Below the pieces are notes generated by a model, which worked only from the letters and a program-made list of their open reading frames with translations, was not told where the DNA came from and did no database searches. Below, in pieces: positions 3,812-30,608 of a stretch of 51,316 nucleotides of DNA (position 1 is its first letter; each line of letters begins with the position of its first letter). Position numbers and translations under genes: made by a program. This DNA comes from a virus. The stretch covers positions 1-51,316 of IMG/VR virus record IMGVR_UViG_3300030101_000538. One strand, 5' to 3'.

Positions 3812-4741
3812 ATGCCCAGTACTTATACAACAAATCTTCGCTTGACAAAACAGGCAGATGGGGAAAACCCTAATACATGGGGTGAAGTTTTAAATGAAGG
3901 AATGATTAGCCTTGTTGATCATGCTATTGCTGGCTATACTTCTATTAGTGTAGGTACAACGGCTACTGTTACTCTTACTGAAAATCAAGGATCAGGGGAT
4001 CAGTCTAGGTCTGCTGTTTTAGAATTTAAAGGAACTATTGGTGGATCACATAATAATATTGATGTGTTAATTCCAAATAATTCTAAACTTTATGTTGTTA
4101 AAAACTCTATTACATATACAGATTCTACTGATAGTCTTGTTCTTAAAGTTGCTGGTAATACAGGAGTAACAATACCAGCAGGAACTGTAGCTCTTTATGT
4201 AACAAATGGTGTTACAACTCAGGCTGTTGAAAAAACTAATTTATCTAGTCTTACTGTTACTGGAGCAGCTAGGTTTGATTCTACTGTTACTGTATCAGGA
4301 GCGGCTGATTTTAAAACAAATATATCTGTAGGTGGGACATTTATAGCAACAGGTGCATCTAGGTTTGACTCTACAGTTACTGTATCAGGTAAAGGTAAGT
4401 TTACAACAGGTGCTTTTACACCTATTGTAACACTAACAGATGCTGCTTCAGTTGCTACTGATTTAAATACTGGTAATGTATTTTATGTTACTCTTGGTGG
4501 TAATAGAACACTTGCGGCTCCTACAGAAACAACTACTAACATTGGAGCAGTAGGACAAATATTTATTCAACAAGATGGAACAGGTAGTCGAACATTAAGT
4601 TATAATACTGTGTTTCAATTTCCTGGTGCTAGTGTGCCTGTGCTTAGTACAGCCGCTAATGCAGTAGATACATTATTTTATGCAGTACGAACAACGACAA
4701 AAGTAGATGCAATTCTAGTTAAAAACTTTAATAGAAGTTAA
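3812..4741 (+). CDS. Structural tail/fibre protein with internal repeats
   Basis: This 309-residue protein is Thr/Val/Ser-rich with high beta content, typical of fibre or tail-decoration proteins. The N terminus (MPSTYTTNLRLTKQADGENP then NTWGEVLN) matches a motif common at the start of marine phage tail proteins, probably the attachment segment. Two near-identical segments, GAARFDSTVTVSG and GASRFDSTVTVSG, lie about 30 residues apart in the middle and suggest a duplicated beta repeat. It is followed at 2 nt by the large stabilization-type protein. Virion location is inferred. Confidence 0.65.
   Translation: MPSTYTTNLRLTKQADGENPNTWGEVLNEGMISLVDHAIAGYTSISVGTTATVTLTENQGSGDQSRSAVLEFKGTIGGSHNNIDVLIPNNSKLYVVKNSITYTDSTDSLVLKVAGNTGVTIPAGTVALYVTNGVTTQAVEKTNLSSLTVTGAARFDSTVTVSGAADFKTNISVGGTFIATGASRFDSTVTVSGKGKFTTGAFTPIVTLTDAASVATDLNTGNVFYVTLGGNRTLAAPTETTTNIGAVGQIFIQQDGTGSRTLSYNTVFQFPGASVPVLSTAANAVDTLFYAVRTTTKVDAILVKNFNRS
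4259..4390 (+). repeat. Two 42-bp direct repeats inside the fibre-type gene
   Basis: The stretches 4259-4300 and 4349-4390 are near-identical 42-mers in the same frame and encode TGA(A/S)RFDSTVTVSG. The differences are mostly at third codon positions, so the duplication is kept at the protein level. Confidence 0.8.
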
Positions 4742-4743
4742 TA

Positions 4744-6894
4744 ATGGCTAAACTAGCTAAGTTTGATTTTGTTCCTGGCTTCCATAGGGAGTCTACTCAG
4801 TACGCTGAAGAGGGTAAATGGTTTGATGGAAACCGTGTACGCTTTCGTCAGGGTAAGCCTGAGAACATGCGTGGCTATGAAACAAGAGCAGCAGGTACAA
4901 AGTTTGATGGATCAGCTAGAGCTTTAATTGCATGGAGTGATGCAGACAATACTAAGAGAGCTATCTTTGGTACACCAGATAGACTGTATGAACATGATGG
5001 TGATCAGATATATGATATTACACCAATAACAACTGTAGTAACACTCAGTAATGTTTTTGGTACATCATCAGGAAGTACAAGAGTTTGTTGTTCAGATGCT
5101 AATCATGGACGTAAGGTAGGAGATCGTGTTCTTTTTACAACAGTAGCAGCTTTTAATAATGTAAGTCTACAAGGTAATGTATACCAAATTACATCTATAG
5201 AAAGTGCTAATGTATTTACAATCTCTGTTACTGATGCGGCTAATGCTACTGGTAGTGACGTAGGAGGTGCTGCTACATTTAATTACTACCTACCTACAGG
5301 CTTCTCTGTAGCTGCTGCTGGTACTGGTTGGTCAGCAGGTACGTATAATGCAGCAGACTCTACATCTGTAGGCATCTCTAAGATTACTGCTACTGGTGGT
5401 AATGCATTGGTTACAGTATCGTGTGCTTCTGCACATGGTGGTTCAGCAAATGATTACATAGAGTTTAAAAATACTTCTATTGATAGTAATGCTGCTACAA
5501 TAGGTGGTAACTTAAACCTTACTAAGACAGCTTTTGGAGGACCAGTATTTGCTATTGTATCTGTTAATGGAACACAGGTTATAGTTAGTGCAGGAGCTAA
5601 TGCAAGTGCAAGTGGTGATGTAACTTCTAATTTAAACATGACTGCTAAAATATATAAACAAACTGCTGGTAGTGGGACAGGTAGAGCATGGAACTCACCA
5701 GCCTCTACTGATGCTACTGGCTTAGTATTTGATATTACACAGTGGAGCTTTGATAACTGGGGTGAAGATGTTGTAGCTAATAGGCGGGGTAGTGGTATAT
5801 TCTATTATGATAGTGATGCATCTACATCACCTACTAGAGTTACCTCTGTTACAACATCTCCTGTAAGTGTTAACTCACTTATTGTATCACCTAATGATAG
5901 ACATCTTATTTGTCTTGGTACTAATCAGTTTTCAGCAACAGCTTCAGTAAGTGGTCCTTTTAATCCTATGTTGGTTAGATGGTCTGACCAAGATAATAGA
6001 ACGGAGTGGAACCCAACAGCAGATACAACATCAGGTGAAGTAGTTCTTACAGATGGAACTAAAATAGTAGGTGCTGTACGAGCAAGAAATGCTATTAATA
6101 TTTGGACTGATAACTCTCTTTGGTTAATGCAATTTGTTGGTGGTAACTTTACATTTAGATTTCAACAGGTAGGTACGAACTGTGGATTGATTGGTCCTCA
6201 TGCAGCCATTGACTATAATGGTGTAACTTATTGGATGGGCTATGATAACTTCTATCGTAATGCTGGCGCAGTAGAAGTTATACCCTGTACTGTTAGAAGG
6301 TTTATCTTTGATGATATTAATACCACTTACTATGATAAAGTTTATTGTGGTATTAACTCAGAGTTTAGAGAAATTATTTGGTTGTATGCATCTACAGGTC
6401 AGACTGAATGTGATAAATATGTTATCTTTAATCCAGAAGAAAACTATTGGGTATATGGTGATATGATCTTTACTACATTTACTGATCGTAGTGTGTTTGG
6501 CAATACTATTACAACAGGTGTAACTGCTGCTGGTAATAATATATATAATAATGAACCACCTGAAGTATTTACAGGTAGCGGTGAAACATTAATTTCATTT
6601 GTTGAGTCTGGTACATTTGATGTAGATGATGGTAATGCAGTTATGTTTATGAATAAAATTATACCTGACTATGATTTATCTGGTGGTCAAATTAAAATGA
6701 AGTTAGTTACAAAGAAGTATCCAGAAAGCACTGAAGAGATTACTAAAACATTTGATATATTTAATAATACAGAAAAAATTAATATTAGATCAAGAGGAAG
6801 GCAAGCTAAGATAAGGGTATCTTGTGAATCAAACAATGCAAGCTGGCGATGGGGATCAGTCCGTATTGCATTACAAGGTGACGGGGAGCGATAA
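4744..6894 (+). CDS. Large tail protein, P22 gp10-like DNA stabilization type
   Basis: The product has 716 residues. The N terminus (LAKFDFVPGFHRESTQYAEE, then GKWFDGNRVRFRQGKPENMRG) is the classic start of podovirus head-closure/DNA stabilization proteins, in which a propeller-like body follows. Later segments such as WTDNSLWLMQFVG, GLIGPHAAIDYNGVTYWMG and FNPEENYWVYGD are the blade-like repeats of that family. It probably plugs the portal side of the tail and binds fibres. It overlaps the next gene by one base. The assignment rests on recognised sequence pattern and position in the late region. Confidence 0.7.
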   Translation: MAKLAKFDFVPGFHRESTQYAEEGKWFDGNRVRFRQGKPENMRGYETRAAGTKFDGSARALIAWSDADNTKRAIFGTPDRLYEHDGDQIYDITPITTVVTLSNVFGTSSGSTRVCCSDANHGRKVGDRVLFTTVAAFNNVSLQGNVYQITSIESANVFTISVTDAANATGSDVGGAATFNYYLPTGFSVAAAGTGWSAGTYNAADSTSVGISKITATGGNALVTVSCASAHGGSANDYIEFKNTSIDSNAATIGGNLNLTKTAFGGPVFAIVSVNGTQVIVSAGANASASGDVTSNLNMTAKIYKQTAGSGTGRAWNSPASTDATGLVFDITQWSFDNWGEDVVANRRGSGIFYYDSDASTSPTRVTSVTTSPVSVNSLIVSPNDRHLICLGTNQFSATASVSGPFNPMLVRWSDQDNRTEWNPTADTTSGEVVLTDGTKIVGAVRARNAINIWTDNSLWLMQFVGGNFTFRFQQVGTNCGLIGPHAAIDYNGVTYWMGYDNFYRNAGAVEVIPCTVRRFIFDDINTTYYDKVYCGINSEFREIIWLYASTGQTECDKYVIFNPEENYWVYGDMIFTTFTDRSVFGNTITTGVTAAGNNIYNNEPPEVFTGSGETLISFVESGTFDVDDGNAVMFMNKIIPDYDLSGGQIKMKLVTKKYPESTEEITKTFDIFNNTEKINIRSRGRQAKIRVSCESNNASWRWGSVRIALQGDGER

Positions 6895-7169
6895 TGGCAA
6901 GATACCCTACTCTACCATTTACACTAACCAACGATGACTTAGTTGATATGTATAAACAAGTAAGAAGTTGGGGAGAAGTATTAGTTCAAGAATTAGACTC
7001 TAGAGATTTACAGGTTGACTCTGCTGAAGCACAAACTATCTTTAGGGTAACTACAGTAACAAGCATAGGTCGTCCTGTTAAGGGGGCTATTGCATACTCA
7101 ACAAGTACAGGAAAGTTTAAAGGATATGTTAGTCTTGGATCAGAAACATCTTGGCAGGATTTAAATTAA
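6894..7169 (+). CDS. Small virion-associated hypothetical protein (91 aa)
   Basis: It starts with ATG overlapping the stop of the stabilization-type gene and ends in a TAATG overlap with the next gene, so the three are translationally coupled. The product is a short mixed alpha/beta protein. Its helical start (DLVDMYKQVRSWGEVLVQEL) and beta ending (KGAIAYSTSTGKFKGYVSL) are common in small phage tail/attachment proteins. No enzyme motif. Structural function inferred from context only. Confidence 0.6.
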   Translation: MARYPTLPFTLTNDDLVDMYKQVRSWGEVLVQELDSRDLQVDSAEAQTIFRVTTVTSIGRPVKGAIAYSTSTGKFKGYVSLGSETSWQDLN

Positions 7170-7354
7170 TGAAGACATCTGATTATTTTAATTTAGTTAA
7201 TAATAGCACATACTTTAGTAATCTAAACCAAGGGTATGTTATTGATCCTACTCGACAAAGGCAGGACCAGAAGCAAGAAGTATTTGCGAAAAACGCAAAA
7301 ATAGAGTATAATAGTAGTAACAAAGTTTTTAAAGATTTGGATTATTTAACATGA
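7169..7354 (+). CDS. Small hypothetical protein (61 aa)
   Basis: The start chosen is the ATG at 7169 (MKTSDYFNLVNNSTYF), which shares an A with the previous stop (TAATG). An in-frame upstream start at 7151 would overlap for no reason. The product is polar, Asn/Gln-rich and unrecognised. A strong promoter-like sequence lies in its 3' part and its stop overlaps the next start by 4 nt. Confidence 0.55.
   Translation: MKTSDYFNLVNNSTYFSNLNQGYVIDPTRQRQDQKQEVFAKNAKIEYNSSNKVFKDLDYLT
7284..7312 (+). promoter_or_regulatory. Sigma70-like promoter, late-arm type
   Basis: The -35 TTGCGA (7284-7289), a 17-nt spacer and the -10 TATAAT (7307-7312) are followed by AGTAGTA. It lies inside the 61-residue gene and would feed the virion-protein genes starting at 7351. 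The TATAATAGTAGTA block is shared with the promoter at 46775. Confidence 0.6.
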
Positions 7355-7983
7355 CAATACCTATTTCATTATTAAAAGATGCTGCTTTAAAAGCTGGGTT
7401 AGAAAAACTTTTGGATCAAGCTAATATAGCAGAGCAAGATTTAAAAAAGTTTATGCCTATGTTAGAAACACAAGATAGTAGTCCAATGGACTTAGTAGAT
7501 GCAGCAGCGTATGCTAATGCTGCTCCTCCTGCACAACCTATGCCTAACCAAATGCAAAGGTCTATGAATGTTAGACCTGCTGATCCACAAAGAATGGCTA
7601 ACATGGAAAATATTAAACAAGCTTTAGACTCAGACTCAGCACTTGATAACTTGGCTATGATGCGTATGCAAAAAGCAGCAGGTGGTGGACAAGCATTAGA
7701 GAGTTTCTCTGGTCAAGTTCCAGGTGAAGGACATGGTATGGAAGATAATGTATATATGCCTATTGTAGATAAAGGAGATCAAGTAGCGACACTAGCTGTT
7801 AGTCCTGATGAGTATGTTGTTGATGCTCACACAATGTCTGCATTAGGAAATGGTAGTGCAGATGAAGGTGCAGATGTAATGGATCAAATAGTAAAAGAAG
7901 TTAGACAAGAAGCATTTGGTACTACACAACAACCAAATCAAATTAATGGACTACAATCACTCAGGAATAAAATGATAGGATAG
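7351..7983 (+). CDS. Virion-associated protein (210 aa), Met/Gln/Ala-rich
   Basis: The product begins with a helical, amphipathic segment, then a Pro/Met/Gln-rich linker (PPAQPMPNQMQRS). Its C-terminal half carries GEGHGMEDNVYMPI, VSPDEYVVDAHTMSALGNGS. The SPDEYVV.A..VSALG.GS signature is common in marine phage head/tail proteins encoded beside ejection proteins. No catalytic site is seen. It is likely a structural or internal virion component. It overlaps the previous gene by 4 nt and is followed at 5 nt by the 763-residue virion protein. Confidence 0.55.
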   Translation: MTIPISLLKDAALKAGLEKLLDQANIAEQDLKKFMPMLETQDSSPMDLVDAAAYANAAPPAQPMPNQMQRSMNVRPADPQRMANMENIKQALDSDSALDNLAMMRMQKAAGGGQALESFSGQVPGEGHGMEDNVYMPIVDKGDQVATLAVSPDEYVVDAHTMSALGNGSADEGADVMDQIVKEVRQEAFGTTQQPNQINGLQSLRNKMIG

Positions 7984-7988
7984 GAATT

Positions 7989-10280
7989 ATGGGCGTTTTA
8001 GATTTCTTTTTTGGTAGAACAAAACCAACACCAACTACAACAACTACTGTTCAGTCAAGCAAGCTTCCTGAAGAGATTGCTCCTTATGTAACACAGGTTC
8101 TTGAAGAAGCTCAGAAGCAATATGAAATTGCTAGAGATAAAGGATATGAACCCTATCCTGGTGAAACCATTGCACCTAGAACTCAAGAAGAAATAGATGC
8201 AATTGCTGGATTACGTGGATTAGTAGGTGGACAAGAAAAATATCTAACAGAAGCAGAAGAATCATTACGTGGTATACCTACAGAGTTTACAGCAGAAGCA
8301 GCACAAAAGTTTATGAGTCCCTATCAACAAGCTGTTACTGATATAGAGAAAAGAAAAGCTCAAGAAGATTTTCAACGTAGGATTATGCCACAGTTTGAAA
8401 AACAAGCTGTTGATGCTGGTGGTATGTCTGGTCTTGGTAGCCGTGCAGGTGTACAAGCAGCACAACTTGGTAGTGCATTTAGCCAACAACTAGGTGATAT
8501 ACAAGCAAAAGGACAACAGAAAGCTTATGAGGATGCCTATCGTCAGTTTACTGATCAAGCTGCAAGGCAACGTGCCAGAGCTTCTGATCTTCAAGGTTTA
8601 GGATTAACAAAGTTTCAAACTGGTTTAGCTGAACAAGGTCTTGGACAAAAACTTGCACAAGCTGATAGAGCAGAAGCACAGTCAGAATTAGATAAAGCTT
8701 TTAAAGAATACACAGAGCAAGAACAATATCCAGAGAGTGAGCTTGCACAGTTATCTAGTTTTGTTTATGGTAATCCATTCTTACAAACACCTGATAGAAC
8801 AACAACTCAATCAGGAATGTTACAGCCTACATCTTCAGTAGGTCAGGGTCTTCTAGGTCTTGGGTTAACTGGTCTTAATATTTATGGTAGGGCTGGTGGA
8901 TTTGGTCCTGGTGGTCCTAGCTTAAATAAATTTTTTAATCCTTATGGTAAAAAATATGGTGGTCGTGTTGTACAAAGGCAGGAGGGTGGTGAAGTACCTA
9001 ATATATATAATAAGCCACAAGCTAGTCCTGCTGAAAGAAGGGGCGGCCCACAACTAGGATTAGGATTAGGTAGTTTGTTTGGTTTTAGGTTTCCCCGAAG
9101 ACAAACTAATGTTATAGAGAATATAGATAATGCTGCTGGTTCTTTAAATGATTATAAAGAAGCTATGGATCAAGACATGTTAAATTTAAGAAGGGCTTCA
9201 GCAGGTATCTCTAGAACTTATAATCAAACATTTGGAAATCCACTACGATTCATTATGTCAGGATACTCGCCAGGAATGGAACAAAGGTCCACACAATTTC
9301 AAGAACAACAGGTTTTAGGAATGAAAGCTGGTGGAGGTCTACGTAGTCTGCCTGTTGTTAAACGTCAAGCAAGTGGTGGTCTAAGTGTAGCATCTTTTGG
9401 TGGTTCTGGTTTAGGTGGCTCAAGTGCTTTTAATGCTCCTAGACCTTCTAGAAATATTTTACCTACATCTGGACAATCTTCTTTTTTAAATACATTAAAA
9501 CAACTTGAAGGAACATATCCTGAATTTTCTAAATATCTATCAGGAGAAGCAGCTAGAAGAGATGCAGAGGAAAGAAAAACATTAAGAGAATCACAAATGA
9601 AAAGATTAAAAGAAGCTATGCCTCAACAAGATAGATTTGTTGGTTTAGCTGAAGCTGCTAGAAGAGTAATGGGTGCTGATCCATCTAAAGGATTTATTAA
9701 TGCACTTGTTGAAGGCATGTCTGGCCTAGATGAAGGACAAAGAGAAGCATATCTTAAACAAAAAGAACAAGAGCTTAAACTTCTTGAATTAGAATTAGAA
9801 GGTGAAGAGTCTGACTTAAAAGCTAAACAAGAAGCAAGAAAAGAAGGTGCAACTCTACCTCTTAAACTAGCAAAAATGGCTAAAGATTTAAAACCAGATT
9901 TAGCAAAATTAACTCCAACAGCATTAAAATATCTTGAAAATCAAGCAAATAAAAAATTTGGTATTTCAGTAACAGTAGATGATGCTGGTAATTTCCGAAT
10001 GAGAAAAGGTGAGAAATTTGTTAGTCCAGAACAAAGTGAAGAAGTATTTGAATATTTACGAGACGGAATGAGAACATATGCTGATTTACTTAAAGCTGGT
10101 TTTGACGAACCTTCAGCTTTAGCACGGGCTTTTCCTAAAAGTAGTAAACCTAAAAGTTCTGGTGGTCAAAAAGGTTCTTCATCATCTCAAACTTCTAATC
10201 CTCCCTCTCTTACTCCAAACGTAAAACCTACAAATGTGACAGGCATGATAGGACGAGTAACTTCTAAAACATCTGTATAA
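7989..10280 (+). CDS. Large internal virion/ejection-type protein (763 aa)
   Basis: Residues 1-260 are Gln/Ala/Glu-rich helix with coiled-coil character (EEAQKQYEIARDKGYEPYPG, QLGDIQAKGQQKAYEDAYRQ), as in phage ejection proteins. The middle is a Gly-rich linker with KYGGRVVQRQEGGEV, the GG-basic motif that marks many marine phage virion proteins. The C-terminal third is again a long charged helix (540-640). The combination of size, low complexity and placement before a 1,360-residue protein fits an internal core protein that leaves the capsid with the DNA. No enzymatic motif was recognised. Confidence 0.6.
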   Translation: MGVLDFFFGRTKPTPTTTTTVQSSKLPEEIAPYVTQVLEEAQKQYEIARDKGYEPYPGETIAPRTQEEIDAIAGLRGLVGGQEKYLTEAEESLRGIPTEFTAEAAQKFMSPYQQAVTDIEKRKAQEDFQRRIMPQFEKQAVDAGGMSGLGSRAGVQAAQLGSAFSQQLGDIQAKGQQKAYEDAYRQFTDQAARQRARASDLQGLGLTKFQTGLAEQGLGQKLAQADRAEAQSELDKAFKEYTEQEQYPESELAQLSSFVYGNPFLQTPDRTTTQSGMLQPTSSVGQGLLGLGLTGLNIYGRAGGFGPGGPSLNKFFNPYGKKYGGRVVQRQEGGEVPNIYNKPQASPAERRGGPQLGLGLGSLFGFRFPRRQTNVIENIDNAAGSLNDYKEAMDQDMLNLRRASAGISRTYNQTFGNPLRFIMSGYSPGMEQRSTQFQEQQVLGMKAGGGLRSLPVVKRQASGGLSVASFGGSGLGGSSAFNAPRPSRNILPTSGQSSFLNTLKQLEGTYPEFSKYLSGEAARRDAEERKTLRESQMKRLKEAMPQQDRFVGLAEAARRVMGADPSKGFINALVEGMSGLDEGQREAYLKQKEQELKLLELELEGEESDLKAKQEARKEGATLPLKLAKMAKDLKPDLAKLTPTALKYLENQANKKFGISVTVDDAGNFRMRKGEKFVSPEQSEEVFEYLRDGMRTYADLLKAGFDEPSALARAFPKSSKPKSSGGQKGSSSSQTSNPPSLTPNVKPTNVTGMIGRVTSKTSV

Positions 10281-16301: not shown

Positions 16302-16542
16302 AGTATGTTATCAATCCATTTGACATGAGTGCTAGTGTTACAGCATTAATAACAATCAATGCTCTATCATTCCATAGTATACCAACAATAAACCAACCAA
16401 GCATACCAATTGCATGAAAGATAAGATTGGCTGGAAAAATATTATTACTTGTTAATATAACACCTATTATTAATAAGAAAGACGCTACCCATTTAATATA
16501 CCAGTCTAGTGTGTGTATGGGTGTCTTCTTATCTACCTTCAT
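16291..16542 (-). CDS. Small membrane protein (83 aa)
   Basis: It has three probable membrane helices: about 14-31 (WVASFLLIIGVILTSN), 38-56 (LIFHAIGMLGWFIVGILW) and 61-78. A short cytoplasmic N terminus (MKVDKKTPIHTLDWYIK) precedes them. The start overlaps the stop of the cupin gene by 4 nt. It lies near the holin gene, so a membrane or lysis role is possible. The family was not recognised. Confidence 0.6.
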   Translation of the reverse strand: MKVDKKTPIHTLDWYIKWVASFLLIIGVILTSNNIFPANLIFHAIGMLGWFIVGILWNDRALIVINAVTLALMSNGLITYYVK

Positions 16543-16880
16543 AGAGAGCCTACTGTTTCTCTTTCTATGTCGTTATGGTCAAACTCTGCCCAGTATAACT
16601 CAAATGCCTCACCACCTTCTACACCTTCAAACTGATGGTACTCTCCAGGCTTTACAGTTGTCCAGTCTCCAGGCTCTAGCACTGTCTCATCTACTAGATC
16701 ATAGTCATTCTTCCATACTTTAATTTTAAGGACACCTTCTGTTACATAGAAGCCATTCCATTTGTATTTATGTTTATGTTTGCTGCATGTACTGCCTTCT
16801 TTAAATTCAATTCTATGAAATTCTAGAACACCATTACCAAAAATAAATTCTGTTTCTCCCCATACCTTACCTGCTTTCAT
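16539..16880 (-). CDS. Cupin-domain protein
   Basis: The 113-residue single-domain cupin has motif 1 around HKHKYKWNGFYVTEGVLKI (metal-ligand candidates His35, His37) and motif 2 around LEPGDWTTVKPGEYHQF (His82). This arrangement resembles sugar-phosphate isomerase C-terminal cupins and WxcM-type sugar enzymes. With a methyltransferase and glycosyltransferase upstream, it may modify an activated sugar. The substrate cannot be read from sequence. It is coupled to both neighbours by overlaps. Confidence 0.75.
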   Translation of the reverse strand: MKAGKVWGETEFIFGNGVLEFHRIEFKEGSTCSKHKHKYKWNGFYVTEGVLKIKVWKNDYDLVDETVLEPGDWTTVKPGEYHQFEGVEGGEAFELYWAEFDHNDIERETVGSL

Positions 16881-17544: not shown

Positions 17545-18252
17545 TTAGTCCTCCGTTAGTTGAAAGATTGTAGGAAAGTATTTAATCTTATAGGCTCGTC
17601 TCTTAATCTCTTCATCTACTTTATGATCTGCATATAGTATAATATTTAAATCAACATTCTTATGTTCTCTGAGCCTACTTGCTAAAAAGTTTGCCCACTC
17701 TTCAGGTTTAAAAATAGATACGTGTACGTTAGTACCATCTCTAAACTTTTTAAGTGCAGGAAGACAAGAGATGTTTAAAAATAATACTTTCTTTGCATAG
17801 TCAAGAAGCTCATCTACCACCCATCCTAAGTCTTCTTCTGGTACATGCTCTAATACATCTGTGCATACAACAGAATCAAATTTACCAGTAGGTAGCTTGT
17901 TATGTTCTTCATAACCTGGATCATATAGAGTATATTCTTTTATGTCCCAAATCTCAGGCAGTGGTTTAGAGATAGGGTTATCTATTTTAACTTTATCATA
18001 GTTCTTAGTGTATAGTAATCCTTTACCACTACCATAATCAAGAAGTGTTTTACATTTATTTTCTCTAAGAACATGTTGAATAACATCTACAAAACTAGCT
18101 ACACTTCGACCATTAAACATTTGATCAGAAGAGTCATGCATTAATTCATATTCTTTTAGTAGTTCCTCGTATCTTTCAGAGGGGAACTCTCTGCTGTAGT
18201 CATCGTCACACTCTATCTTTGACTTAACTGTAATAGCTTCTGCTTTTCTCAT
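17545..18252 (-). CDS. Class I SAM-dependent methyltransferase
   Basis: The 235-residue protein has SAM motif I LLDYGSGKG (about 70-78), an acidic residue at the end of the second strand (YTLYDPGYEE, Asp111) and FDSVVCTDVLEHVPEED, typical of small-molecule and glycan methyltransferases (Methyltransf_11/23 group). It overlaps the stop of the large fusion upstream by 4 nt, so the two are coupled. The context suggests methylation of a sugar or lipid intermediate rather than DNA. No DNA-methyltransferase motif (DPPY) is present. Confidence 0.8.
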   Translation of the reverse strand: MRKAEAITVKSKIECDDDYSREFPSERYEELLKEYELMHDSSDQMFNGRSVASFVDVIQHVLRENKCKTLLDYGSGKGLLYTKNYDKVKIDNPISKPLPEIWDIKEYTLYDPGYEEHNKLPTGKFDSVVCTDVLEHVPEEDLGWVVDELLDYAKKVLFLNISCLPALKKFRDGTNVHVSIFKPEEWANFLASRLREHKNVDLNIILYADHKVDEEIKRRAYKIKYFPTIFQLTED

Positions 18253-20615
18253 GAATAGTATTCCTTAAATGTAGGACGTTCCTCTCTTGATGCTTGTATA
18301 TCCCACAGGTCAGCAACCATAGTATCTTTGCCGTGGTATGTTAGCACACCTTCAAGACCAGGATCAGCAAAGACTTTCTCACAGTCCTGTGCCATAGCTA
18401 GAAGCTCACCTGTTGTCCAATATGTTTTATCTTGTACGTTTACCTCAATGTATTTAGGCTTGGGAGTTTCACCACCCTCAAGATCACCTGTAGTTTCAGT
18501 CTTCTCTTCATCAGTAGGCTCGTCTCTACAGCAATCAAAACCAAAGAGATGTACATCCCTGAAGCCCATCGTGTGGAACATACCAATGCCTCGCATGGCT
18601 GCACATGTACCACCTGTAATTAACGTAGCACCTTGAGGTATACCAAGGTCTTCGTTTAGCTTTACTACATTATTAGTGATTTGATTACCTCTCTCTTCCT
18701 CTTCTCGTAGTGAATCAGTAAAGGCATGCCATCCCCATATGTTAGCACCACTATCTTTAAGTAGTTTAGTTGTAGATGGGTCAGTCATTGACGCAACAAA
18801 GAACATTGTATCAGAAGATACATCTTTAAACAAGTCTTTTCTTACAATGTTATGTGTGCTTACACCTTCGACTGGACGGGGATCAAGAACAATACAACCC
18901 CACGGTACAATGCCATTCTTTAATAGATTAGGATAGGCATGTTTAACTGCAAGCATCTTTGCTGTAGGATTATCTTTCATGAAAGACTTTAATTCATCAT
19001 AGTCTAGATACGGTCCTGCTGAAACAATAATACCTTTGTCTCTATGTGCAGGATGTTTAACAATCCATTTATTATCGTCAATTAATTTAAGATTAGTTTG
19101 GATGTTACTAGTGATATATTCTTTTGGTACACTATCTCTGGGGTGTACAATAATAGGAACACGTTTAACTTCTTCAGGTATATCTTTAATATCATTGTTA
19201 GTTAAGACAACAACAAGGTGAGTTACACCACCGTTAACCACACGATCACTGGATGGAAGTATATGCTTTCGGTTTGTACTTTTCTGATCAAAGTTAGTCC
19301 AACCTTCTTCATCTTCAAAGCCTTCTTGAACTTTATTTGTTTCAATTTTTTCAAAGACTTTATTAACACCACGATACTTTTCAGGTGGTAGTTCTTCAGC
19401 TTCGTCCTTTGTAAAGTAGTGATCCATTAAAACAATAGGCACATTCTGCAACACATCAAACTCATGTGCTACAGTCTTCTCACTATTACCACTACCAATT
19501 AATGCTAGATCAATATCATCTGGTATATCTTTTGTAAGAACATCTCGAACATTACCTTTATGTAATTCATAGGTAAATGTTTTATCATTATGTTCTTTAA
19601 CATACTCAGTAAACTCATCTAGTCTTTTAATAACAGCCGCCTCAGTATTGTGAGGTTTAACATTGAACTCTTCTTTATCAATGGTAGATGTAGCATCTTC
19701 AAAGAGATCGTAACCAATGTAGTGTACAGTATCAGTACGATCAAAGGCAGCAAGAGACATCTCAATAGCACGACCAGCGTTCCATGTACCAGTCTCTAGT
19801 ATCTTCTTAGGTTCATAAAAACGAATAAGATCAGCAAGTTGCTTGTACCTACCAGGAAGAATGTCTGGTGTAGTTGATTCATCTGATAGAGGTATAACAC
19901 GATTACCATCAGCATCTCTAAGGTTCTTTGCTAGTGGGCTACGTAGGTCTGCAAGTATGGTATCTACAAACTCTGATGTCTCTGAGTTTAGTAATCTATA
20001 GTTCATACCATGTGCATTGTAGATAGATACTAAGGTATTAAGAATAAAGAAAGCTCTCCAGTCTCTATACTTTAGATAGTTGTCAGTAATGTATGCACCA
20101 CGTAGATCAGCAATAAGATCAACACAGGGTTGATATGTAATTTGAAATGCAGCAAAGTGTGTCTGATCTTCAATCAGTGTTAGAGGAACCTCATTATTGT
20201 CATCACTAAATACTTTCTCAAGATAGTTAGTAGTTATCTTATTCATAGTATGACAGTGAGGGTCAACCCAAAAAACCCACGACATAGAATTATTAAACAT
20301 CGTTTCACTGATAGCAAAAACTTTTGGAGCCTCTGTTAAAACATCAATGGTTTCGTTGTATTCAAACTCACCATTCTCTGTACCGTTATGTTCTTTATTT
20401 CTTTCAGCAAACTCTGTGTAATCAGATAGATTACTTAGATTATAATAGTGAATGTTCTTTGCTTTAGGTAATGAATAATGTTTGATATCCATATCATAAT
20501 AGTAACAATCAAATTCAATAGTAGTGTCCCACTTAGAAGCAAAGTCTTCTATAAGTCTGGCACCATTGCTTTTTAGTAGCTTCTCATTGAAGCATGTAAC
20601 AACTCTATAACTCAT
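18249..20615 (-). CDS. Three-domain fusion: glycosyltransferase-like, degenerate methyltransferase, DUF115/MptE-like
   Basis: The ATG at 20615 (MSYRVVTCFNEKLL) is preferred. A TTG at 20624 is also open, and numbering here is from that TTG. Residues 1-230 resemble a glycosyltransferase-type Rossmann fold (WVFWVDPHCHTMNK may hold the acidic motif). Residues 255-440 resemble a Methyltransf_24 domain (KKILETGTWNAGRAIEMS; DLALIGSGNSEKTVAHEFD), but the usual Asp-Gly-Asp-His is replaced by GSGNSE, so catalysis is doubtful. Residues 530-720 match DUF115/MptE-like enzymes (GIIVSAGPYLD; GGTCAAMRGIGMF; DVHLFGFDC), a family tied to sugar or flagellin glycosylation. It overlaps the GT8 gene and the methyltransferase gene, so the three form one unit. 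Confidence 0.65.
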   Translation of the reverse strand: MSYRVVTCFNEKLLKSNGARLIEDFASKWDTTIEFDCYYYDMDIKHYSLPKAKNIHYYNLSNLSDYTEFAERNKEHNGTENGEFEYNETIDVLTEAPKVFAISETMFNNSMSWVFWVDPHCHTMNKITTNYLEKVFSDDNNEVPLTLIEDQTHFAAFQITYQPCVDLIADLRGAYITDNYLKYRDWRAFFILNTLVSIYNAHGMNYRLLNSETSEFVDTILADLRSPLAKNLRDADGNRVIPLSDESTTPDILPGRYKQLADLIRFYEPKKILETGTWNAGRAIEMSLAAFDRTDTVHYIGYDLFEDATSTIDKEEFNVKPHNTEAAVIKRLDEFTEYVKEHNDKTFTYELHKGNVRDVLTKDIPDDIDLALIGSGNSEKTVAHEFDVLQNVPIVLMDHYFTKDEAEELPPEKYRGVNKVFEKIETNKVQEGFEDEEGWTNFDQKSTNRKHILPSSDRVVNGGVTHLVVVLTNNDIKDIPEEVKRVPIIVHPRDSVPKEYITSNIQTNLKLIDDNKWIVKHPAHRDKGIIVSAGPYLDYDELKSFMKDNPTAKMLAVKHAYPNLLKNGIVPWGCIVLDPRPVEGVSTHNIVRKDLFKDVSSDTMFFVASMTDPSTTKLLKDSGANIWGWHAFTDSLREEEERGNQITNNVVKLNEDLGIPQGATLITGGTCAAMRGIGMFHTMGFRDVHLFGFDCCRDEPTDEEKTETTGDLEGGETPKPKYIEVNVQDKTYWTTGELLAMAQDCEKVFADPGLEGVLTYHGKDTMVADLWDIQASREERPTFKEYYS

Positions 20616-21375
20616 AAGGTTCAATCATTCCTTTTCCTACAAGATACGTATACTCTTGATTCCACTCAGATGCATAGTAGCCATCAGCATGGCGAGTGCA
20701 AGACCAGTCTTTAAACCACGGTCCACCAGTGGTGAAGTGTACGTTCTTAGGTTTAATGTCAGAAGAAGAATGATTATCAAGCCAGTTCCACTCTTCGTCA
20801 ATACCACCAATGTCTGATTCTTTATCACCAACCCATTGAAATTGATGCAACCATGAACCAGACATTGTATTTACTTTCTCAACTGTAAGTTCTTTATTCT
20901 TAGGATGAGAACAATTCCAAAGCATAAGACTAGACCAGTTCTTTTTAGGATAAGATAGTTGTACTTGTTTATCCATCTTTACTCTATCTGTTGGTTCATA
21001 CTTATGTTTAACACAGTAGACAGGATAGTAATCTAGGTTATACTCTTCAAAGATTTCATTGATGTCAGTACGTATGAGCATATCACAGTCCATGTACAAT
21101 GCCCAACCCTCATACATGTTAAGAGCAGGAACAAGAAACCTAGAAAAACTAAACTCAGTAGAGAAAGGACGACCATCTATTAGGTCTATCTTTTGATTAC
21201 CATCTTCTTTATGTTCTCGCCAATACATATTCATCAGGCGTAGTGTATCTAGTTTAATAGGTATCACACGAACATTATCTACAGAGATACGTTCAATAGT
21301 AAACTTTAGTACTTCATAGGCTACACGTTCTTTAGGATCATAGCCAATGTAAACTGTGTTAGGTGCTTTCTTCAT
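20605..21375 (-). CDS. Glycosyltransferase, GT8-like
   Basis: The 256-residue GT-A protein has the metal and nucleotide-sugar DXD motif in WALYMDCDMLIRTD (Asp96/Asp98), a conserved STEFSFSRFLVPAL segment just before it, and late WNCSHPKNKEL and NVHFTTGGPWFKDW segments typical of GT8-related phage transferases. It would add a sugar to host LPS, a phage protein or DNA; the acceptor is unknown. It is the first gene of the glycan unit, behind an intrinsic terminator at 21385-21435, so it may rely on read-through or its own start. Confidence 0.75.
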   Translation of the reverse strand: MKKAPNTVYIGYDPKERVAYEVLKFTIERISVDNVRVIPIKLDTLRLMNMYWREHKEDGNQKIDLIDGRPFSTEFSFSRFLVPALNMYEGWALYMDCDMLIRTDINEIFEEYNLDYYPVYCVKHKYEPTDRVKMDKQVQLSYPKKNWSSLMLWNCSHPKNKELTVEKVNTMSGSWLHQFQWVGDKESDIGGIDEEWNWLDNHSSSDIKPKNVHFTTGGPWFKDWSCTRHADGYYASEWNQEYTYLVGKGMIEPYEL

Positions 21376-29828: not shown

Positions 29829-30608
29829 TTAGATAGCACGTTGGATACGCTTAATAGATTTTAATACATGTTCAAAGTCTTTTAGATGTAGTATATTAGG
29901 GCCGTCACTTGGTGAATTATCTGGGTCTTCATGCACCTCCATAAAAAAGTTTTCTACTCCTACTGCTGCGGCTGCACGTAGTAGGTACGGAACATACTCC
30001 CTATTACCACCAGAAGATTCTCCTAACCCTCCTGGTTTTTGCACACTGTGTGTAGCATCAAAGACTATAGGCACACCATGTGTTTTCTGGTATTCGTTTA
30101 TCATATAGATTAATCCAGTAAAGTCAACCACTAAATTATTATATCCAAAGCATGTACCACGCTCTGTGATTAAGACCCTCTCCATGCCTGTCTTAGACAA
30201 GATACCAGCAACATCCCACGGTGCAAGGAACTGACCCTTCTTTATATTAATAGTAGCACCTGTATACATAGCCTCTTTTATTAGATCAGTTTGTCTACAT
30301 AAAAATGCAGGTATCTGTATGATATCAGGTACTTTACCCCACTTAAAAACAGTTTTAATTTGCCTTACATCGTGAAAATCTACACATGTTTTTACATTAA
30401 CTATTTCAGATACGTCTCTAATCATACCTGTTCCTAGTACAAATCCCATACCACGTTTACCAGTGGCATGAGAACGATTAGCTTTGTCAAAGGATGCCTT
30501 AAAATAATAATCATATCCTAATGCATTGCATAAATCTTTACAATGTTTAGCTATCTTAACACCCTGTTCAACGCTTTCGATCTGGCACGGACCTGCTATT
30601 ATCCTCAT
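29829..30608 (-). CDS. kdsA: 3-deoxy-D-manno-octulosonate 8-phosphate synthase (KdsA)
   Basis: It condenses arabinose 5-phosphate and phosphoenolpyruvate to Kdo-8-phosphate, the precursor of the inner LPS sugar Kdo. The 259 residues cover the whole TIM barrel: IIAGPCQIES, YFKASFDKANRS, IQIPAFLCRQTDLI, INIKKGQFLAPWD, CFGYNNLVVD, FDATHSVQ, EVHEDPDNSPSDGPN. Metal-ligand candidates Cys8, His187, Glu224 and Asp235 point to the metal-dependent class. All expected catalytic segments are present, so it is probably active. It lies between a 56-residue gene and primase-helicase, inside the replication block. It is an unusual metabolic cargo gene. Confidence 0.92.
   Translation of the reverse strand: MRIIAGPCQIESVEQGVKIAKHCKDLCNALGYDYYFKASFDKANRSHATGKRGMGFVLGTGMIRDVSEIVNVKTCVDFHDVRQIKTVFKWGKVPDIIQIPAFLCRQTDLIKEAMYTGATINIKKGQFLAPWDVAGILSKTGMERVLITERGTCFGYNNLVVDFTGLIYMINEYQKTHGVPIVFDATHSVQKPGGLGESSGGNREYVPYLLRAAAAVGVENFFMEVHEDPDNSPSDGPNILHLKDFEHVLKSIKRIQRAI

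Follow-up and report, generated by a model that had tools for sequence, protein, structure and literature searches.

The window analyzed here, the 51,316 nucleotides at positions 1 to 51,316 of IMG/VR virus record IMGVR_UViG_3300030101_000538 (58,291 bases in full), carries on its minus strand a gene for a 788-residue protein in which a glycosyltransferase-like part, a methyltransferase fold and a DUF115/Maf-like part are fused. The fusion is real, conserved and unusual, and it is a gene of a large and very common group of uncultured ocean phages. The chances appear about even that the protein is a Maf-like sugar transferase, probably using a cytidine monophosphate (CMP)-ulosonate donor, which keeps its methyltransferase-derived part for binding and acts on a virion protein. 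The sugar donor and the acceptor named here are those suggested by fold, profile and gene context.

The fusion gene and its relation to Maf

The gene, its parts and its motifs lie as follows.

18249..20615, minus strand: fusion gene, 788 residues (GT-A-like, COMT-like methyltransferase fold, DUF115/Maf-like)
18252..19160, minus strand: C part, residues 486-788, DUF115/MptE-like, resembling the Maf central domain (PF01973; VIA-align; hhalign)
18591..18614, minus strand: GGTCAAMR, residues 668-675, near-invariant DUF115 motif (invariant columns)
19191..19919, minus strand: middle part, residues 233-475, COMT/TylF-like methyltransferase fold (VIA-align; separate gene in locus L185, E 8e-37)
19770..19796, minus strand: motif I, ETGTWNAGR, residues 274-282, glycine motif of the S-adenosylmethionine (SAM) site (ExGxWNxGR in 122/122)
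19479..19496, minus strand: GSGNSE, residues 374-379, where DGDHS/DGGHS is expected (G[SG]G[ND]S in 121/121 with letters there)
19419..19424, minus strand: D398-H399, remaining metal-site position, LDD/DN in relatives with an intact site (D in 121/121)
19920..20615, minus strand: N part, residues 1-232, GT-A glycosyltransferase-like (Foldseek GT6/GT8 hits; profile match to L185, 7505-8269)
20256..20264, minus strand: DxD position, residues 118-120, reading D-P-H (D-x-D in 48/121 members)

The open reading frame (ORF) runs from an ATG at 20615 to a stop at 18249-18251, and the opposite (plus) strand is stop-rich across it, the longest exception being an ORF of 102 residues. The frame is kept in 122 distinct homologues, which places the fusion far beyond chance. 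At least 541 relatives were found among 599 candidate IMG/VR stretches. A tblastn search of 50,697 isolate phage records gave no match to the fusion, and PHROGs contains no family that fits it. The window terminase shares about 40% identity with the terminases of pelagiphages HTVC027P and HTVC023P. Among bacterial genome contigs, one of 68 candidates is a relative of the fusion; this 33-kb contig (PAKP01000072.1) has the gene order of the present phage and is binned with a Sneathiella metagenome-assembled genome, either a hint of the host or a binning error.

Residue counts below refer to 153 rows reduced to 122 distinct sequences, one of them gapped at the GSGNSE motif; some loci are overlapping stretches of a single contig. 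The family alignment holds 35 homologues below 97% identity, with one locus that has no start (L031) omitted. Among 22 representatives, 89/294 positions are invariant in the C part, 51/220 in the middle part and 19/220 in the N part, which makes the DUF115 part the most constrained of the three. A comparison of the three parts showed that they are not repeats of one another.

Pfam assigns residues 502-697 of the C part to MptE-like PF01973 (E 2e-13, above cut-off), and the same family is matched in all 36 aligned members. The whole protein was modeled with AlphaFold2 from 36 sequences (mean predicted local distance difference test score, pLDDT, 82.8; predicted template modeling score, pTM, 0.54). 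A Foldseek search of the PDB with this model returns Maf 5mu5 first (E 1.8e-8), then COMT-type O-methyltransferases and, lower, GT6 and GT8 enzymes. A second model, of residues 232-788 (56 sequences, pLDDT 85.8, pTM 0.61), again gives 5mu5 as the first hit. VIA-align places model residues 239-773 on residues 31-503 of the 5mu5 chain, with two domains in the same order (Z 17.4, root-mean-square deviation (rmsd) 17.1), and aligns 347 residues of the 232-788 model (Z 18.1, rmsd 14.0); the rmsd of 14.0 indicates that the domains match one after another and not as a rigid body. The alignment ends at Maf residue 503 and the phage protein ends shortly after its DUF115 part, although an absent VIA-align match is not proof of an absent helical domain. 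When model residues 486-762 are compared with the archaeal (M. jannaschii) HPPK/MptE structure 8sd5, the result is Z 15.8 with an rmsd of 3.1 over 195 residues.

Profile comparisons agree with the fold. hhalign relates the C part to seven Maf-like proteins from Sneathiella-class genomes (E 2e-7). A profile of eight phage DUF115 proteins (A4) matches 5mu5 (E 6e-8), the archaeal HPPK 8sd5 (E 1.6e-7) and, weakly, Cst-II (E 0.12); its stretch matching GGTCAAMR aligns weakly to Cst-II residues 131-170. The Maf-type PseD model is hit at E 9e-6, far under cut-off. Maf has been described as a three-domain protein, with a degenerate Rossmann N domain bearing weak methyltransferase motifs, a central PF01973 domain resembling the sialyltransferase Cst-II, and a helical C domain (PMC11339370).

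No Pfam family matches the N part above cut-off. Whole-model Foldseek hits include the GT6 alpha-1,3-galactosyltransferase 5nr9 (E 3e-5) and the GT8 enzyme GlyE 5gvw (E 5e-5), reported with no printed model range, and the N-part profile weakly matches a stand-alone GT-A-like gene at 7505-8269 of L185 (E 4e-6). By elimination and this profile match, the N part is probably a glycosyltransferase of GT-A type; it is the least certain of the three calls, because the GT-A fold hits lack that range and the profile match is single and weak. Its DxD is intact in 48 of the 121 members with letters there and absent in the window (DPH). The site that visibly varies across the family is this DxD, not GSGNSE.

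A first-pass annotation of the DNA had called the same three domains, glycosyltransferase-like, Methyltransf_24-like and DUF115/MptE-like, and had tied the last to Maf/MptE proteins. The Pfam, Foldseek, VIA-align and profile results let these calls stand, and the predicted structures of the middle and C parts have the folds that it expected: 5mu5 is the top hit, and 8sd5 and COMT align closely to the C and middle parts.

Head-module homologues, donor supply and the acceptor

Separate homologues of the three parts, which the first-pass annotation had thought worth looking for, are neighboring genes in L185 (IMG/VR contig 3300027822_000308). The order there is DUF115, DUF115, GT8, GT-A-like and methyltransferase, between capsid and adaptor genes in a head module spanning 3879-10115 with an SU10-type adaptor (SU10_adaptor by Pfam). 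The profiles of the fusion parts match these genes at E 4e-6 (N), 8e-37 (middle) and 3e-17 (C), and the GT8 gene of the window matches at E 3e-14 a homologue that Pfam names Glyco_transf_8. The fusion and its GT8 neighbor therefore have their counterpart in neighboring genes of another phage. The split genes are likely older than the fusion, and evolution would then have run from split to fused.

Stand-alone phage DUF115 genes were placed in 23 distinct loci, with adaptor-side genes downstream in 19, capsid or scaffold genes upstream in 15, and both in 14; the capsid and scaffold labels are our own, from sequence and position. The 23 derive from 26 loci after removal of two duplicates (L214, L223) and of L208, which has no DUF115 row because the ORF caller preferred antisense frames. 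Three loci without profile-marked neighbors (L211, L222, L182) lie, judged by eye, with terminase, portal or scaffold-like genes and are excluded from the 14. In the set of 31 DUF115 loci, 22 are tabulated, six are contigs already included, and L199, L209 and L212 were omitted as presumed near-duplicates. Searches with single stand-alone proteins gave few or no new loci, and tblastn of a stand-alone DUF115 stretch against isolate phages gave no match. The head-module location of these genes suggests that a virion protein is a likelier acceptor than flagellin. The link between DUF115 and flagellin glycosylation that the first-pass annotation had drawn is thus not needed here, since the phage relatives lie in the virion head module (14 of the 23 loci).

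Some DUF115 loci hold further sugar genes, among them a glycosyltransferase 2 fusion in L202 and a C-methyltransferase in L207. At 5485-8056 of L182, a prophage-like locus, two sulfotransferase-like genes and a DUF115 gene lie between terminase-like and portal-like genes.

The neighboring and potentially related genes of the window are the following.

20605..21375, minus strand: upstream GT8-like glycosyltransferase (phrog_28018, E 1e-46)
17545..18252, minus strand: downstream class I methyltransferase (family-library matches)
29829..30608, minus strand: KdsA, 3-deoxy-D-manno-octulosonate (KDO)-8-phosphate synthase, a possible but optional donor supply (NF003543, 318 bits against a cut-off of 242)

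In 26/26 tabulated loci, the GT8 gene, the fusion and the methyltransferase gene are neighbors, separated by no more than one small ORF; these loci are representatives chosen from about 150, and the lowest identity among their fusions is about 45%. No separate homologues of the N, middle or C parts were found next to the paired GT8 and methyltransferase genes of Caulobacter, Stenotrophomonas and Manatee Spring phages or next to the methyltransferase gene that a Roseobacter phage carries. A small, weakly WbuC-like cupin gene (16539-16880 of the window, minus strand) is near the cassette in some group members. Outside the window, locus L155 (4325-7027, plus strand) encodes a 900-residue fibre-like protein with many Ser/Thr-rich VSVSGN/GGTxTV repeats, a possible glycan acceptor.

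CMP-Neu5Ac and CMP-KDO are both usable by Maf enzymes (PMC11339370). KdsA occurs in 2 of the 20 virus records of the group, some of which are fragments, namely the record of the window and its 88%-identical relative L008; with so few occurrences, KDO is rejected as a group-wide donor. A cytidylyltransferase gene (PF02348, 5180-5974) lies directly upstream of a DUF115 gene (5971-6783) inside the phage head module of L191, the only one of 24 records overall to have one; none of the 20 group records does. NeuB is absent from the 20 group records and from all 24.

The mechanism that we propose is as follows. The C-terminal DUF115 domain, as a relative of Maf, would be the main engine of a phage-encoded glycosylation enzyme. 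Its substrate would be an ulosonate-type sugar activated with CMP, resembling sialic acid or KDO, which it would attach to Ser/Thr residues of a protein; the likeliest target is a structural protein of the phage. Further sugars may come from the N-terminal GT-A domain and from the GT8 enzyme next to the fusion, and the neighboring methyltransferase may methylate the product. This proposal draws on the 5mu5 fold match, the Maf profile matches, the split genes of L185, the head-module loci, the cytidylyltransferase of L191 and the KdsA gene of the window phage.

Several observations weigh against it. The Maf match is not rigid (rmsd 17.1 and 14.0, from models with pTM 0.54 and 0.61), a search with only the C part of the window protein retrieves no related PDB sequence, and the MptE pyrophosphokinase shares the same fold. 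The middle part does not match the Maf N domain by sequence (hhalign probability 2.3). No donor gene among KdsA, the cytidylyltransferase and NeuB is common to the 20 group records, and no virion glycan is on record for these phages. In the group of the window, moreover, the cassette adjoins the terminase small subunit and lysis-side genes, outside the head module.

This last position, among replication- and lysis-side genes and not structural ones, would also suit a cassette that during infection modifies the host surface (lipopolysaccharide, capsule or flagellin) instead of the virion, for instance as a block to superinfection. Maf itself acts on flagellin (PMC11339370). This phage encodes KdsA, and the presence of NeuA and KdsA in marine viral genomes has been interpreted as surface modification (PMC5332604). 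In a bacterial genome, at 1-2969 of locus L169 (G109), the gene right after a DUF115 gene is homologous to the downstream methyltransferase gene of the window (E 2e-22). However, stand-alone phage DUF115 genes reside in the head module, where host-surface enzymes have no evident reason to be, and KdsA is absent from 18 of the 20 related virus records. Host-surface modification is a possible but less probable role for the cassette.

A fixed change in the methyltransferase fold

VIA-align of model residues 240-475 against COMT (Z about 16, rmsd about 3) shows a COMT-like Rossmann fold; TrmR and other class I methyltransferases are also among the fold matches of the middle part. Pfam Methyltransf_24 matches residues 273-390 in the window member below cut-off (E 0.009). 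Across the 36 aligned members, Methyltransf_24 is matched in 23 and TylF in 8 (E up to 0.1). Motif I (ExGxWNxGR) and motif II (G[YF]DLFE) are each kept in 122/122 members. The position where DGxHS is expected reads GSGNS in 83 members, GGGNS in 19 and GGGDS in 19, with one gap. D398 is kept in all 121 members with letters there, followed by H in 100 and N in 21. The stand-alone methyltransferase of L185 keeps both IDGGHS and LDD and scores 60.1 bits for Methyltransf_24 against a Pfam cut-off of 26.3.

In a relative of solved structure, D136, D162 and N163 hold the metal (PMC4636158). In the MycE/ThnM1 family, Asp275, His278 and Asp304 are described as active-site residues, both Asp residues holding Mg (PMC9275233). 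Motif alignment with L185 would make G374 the counterpart of the first metal-ligand Asp, and N377 that of the DxxH His; on that placement, the Asp is replaced by G and the His by N or D in 121/121 members. The first-pass annotation had described a degenerate center in which DGDH is replaced by GSGNSE. The replacement stands, at residues 374-379, but the altered motif is fixed across the family and is not decay in one copy, as its conservation in 121/121 members indicates. The family alignment likewise upholds its view of a middle part that has lost metal-site and catalytic residues and kept its cofactor-site motifs (122/122).

Retention of the SAM-site motifs, with the first metal ligand and the His lost, speaks more for binding than for ordinary catalysis, although it is no proof. 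In our proposal, the middle domain would descend from a metal-dependent O-methyltransferase and would now act as a binder. Judged from sequence, it is more likely to bind SAM or S-adenosylhomocysteine, the growing glycan or a partner domain than to methylate by the usual mechanism, and its catalytic activity has probably been lost.

It seems doubtful that the middle domain still works as a methyltransferase by an altered and perhaps metal-independent mechanism, which would give the enzyme three activities. The intact SAM-site motifs, the retained D398 and the matches to TrmR and other class I methyltransferases would suit this reading, as would the strict conservation of GxGxS, which is expected for a functional site. 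Against this, the Asp and His of DxxH, active-site residues in relatives, are gone in 121/121 members, and a second methyltransferase gene lies next door in 26/26 loci.

Remaining alternatives and comparison with known systems

It is very improbable that the C domain is an MptE-type pyrophosphokinase or other nucleotide enzyme with no role in protein glycosylation. The close structural match to M. jannaschii HPPK, the Pfam name MptE-like and the match of the A4 profile to 8sd5 speak for such an enzyme. However, the DLDGD of the archaeal enzyme, which we infer to take part in catalysis, reads LDPR in the window and is absent from all 12 aligned phage proteins, which argues against a pterin enzyme, and the domain is found fused to glycosyltransferases and in clusters with them. 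DNA can be a substrate of phage glycosyltransferases, and this phage has a ThyX gene; decoration of phage DNA by the cassette, giving a hypermodified base with sugar and methyl groups, is nevertheless hardly credible, as the C domain groups with Maf, a protein glycosyltransferase, and no base-modifying partner gene was recognized among the genes scanned with family libraries.

In the literature searched (titles and abstract openings), no report was found of a Maf-like CMP-ulosonate route in phages, of virion glycosylation by DUF115 proteins, or of this fusion. We tentatively advance a wider and less probable proposal, to be taken as a whole: that many phages encode Maf-type enzymes and with them decorate their own heads or tails with CMP-activated ulosonates (KDO or sialic-acid-like), that a dominant ocean lineage has fused the counterparts of three head-module genes, and that the middle domain shows how the Maf N domain could arise from a sugar O-methyltransferase turned binding module. 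If this is true, Maf-like chemistry, known from bacterial flagella, would be in widespread use among phages for coating their own particles with sugar, which would probably affect adsorption, stability and recognition, and an abundant uncultured marine phage group would gain a named, testable enzyme. The split (IDGGHS) and fused (GxGNS) pair would also be a clean case of a methyltransferase becoming a binding module, bearing on the unexplained N domain of Maf.

Of the known systems, the archaeal 6-hydroxymethyl-7,8-dihydropterin pyrophosphokinase MptE (8sd5) shares the fold of the phage C domain, but it has DLDGD, whereas the phage domain does not and is linked to glycosylation genes. COMT/TylF-like metal-dependent O-methyltransferases have their fold and motifs I and II in common with the phage middle domain and differ from it in having DxxH where it has GxxN/D. 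In Maf (5mu5), the DUF115 domain is homologous by profile and alike in fold to the phage C part, and the Rossmann, methyltransferase-like domain that precedes it may have its counterpart in the phage middle part, which has the same place in the order. The SAM-site motifs are clear in the phage middle part and weak in the Maf N domain, with no sequence match between the two; the fusion has in addition a probable N-terminal GT-A domain, and the C-terminal helical part of Maf is unmatched in the VIA alignment. Genes for three glycosyltransferases lie downstream of one for an O-methyltransferase in cluster O mycobacteriophages, and these enzymes are reported to modify proteins of the capsid and tail tube (PMC11600133, citing Freeman et al. 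2023). Virion glycosylation by phage-encoded enzymes is therefore already known. There, much as in the present cassette, glycosyltransferases adjoin an O-methyltransferase; the likeness noted is one of gene arrangement, and in the present system three domains are fused, one of them Maf-like.

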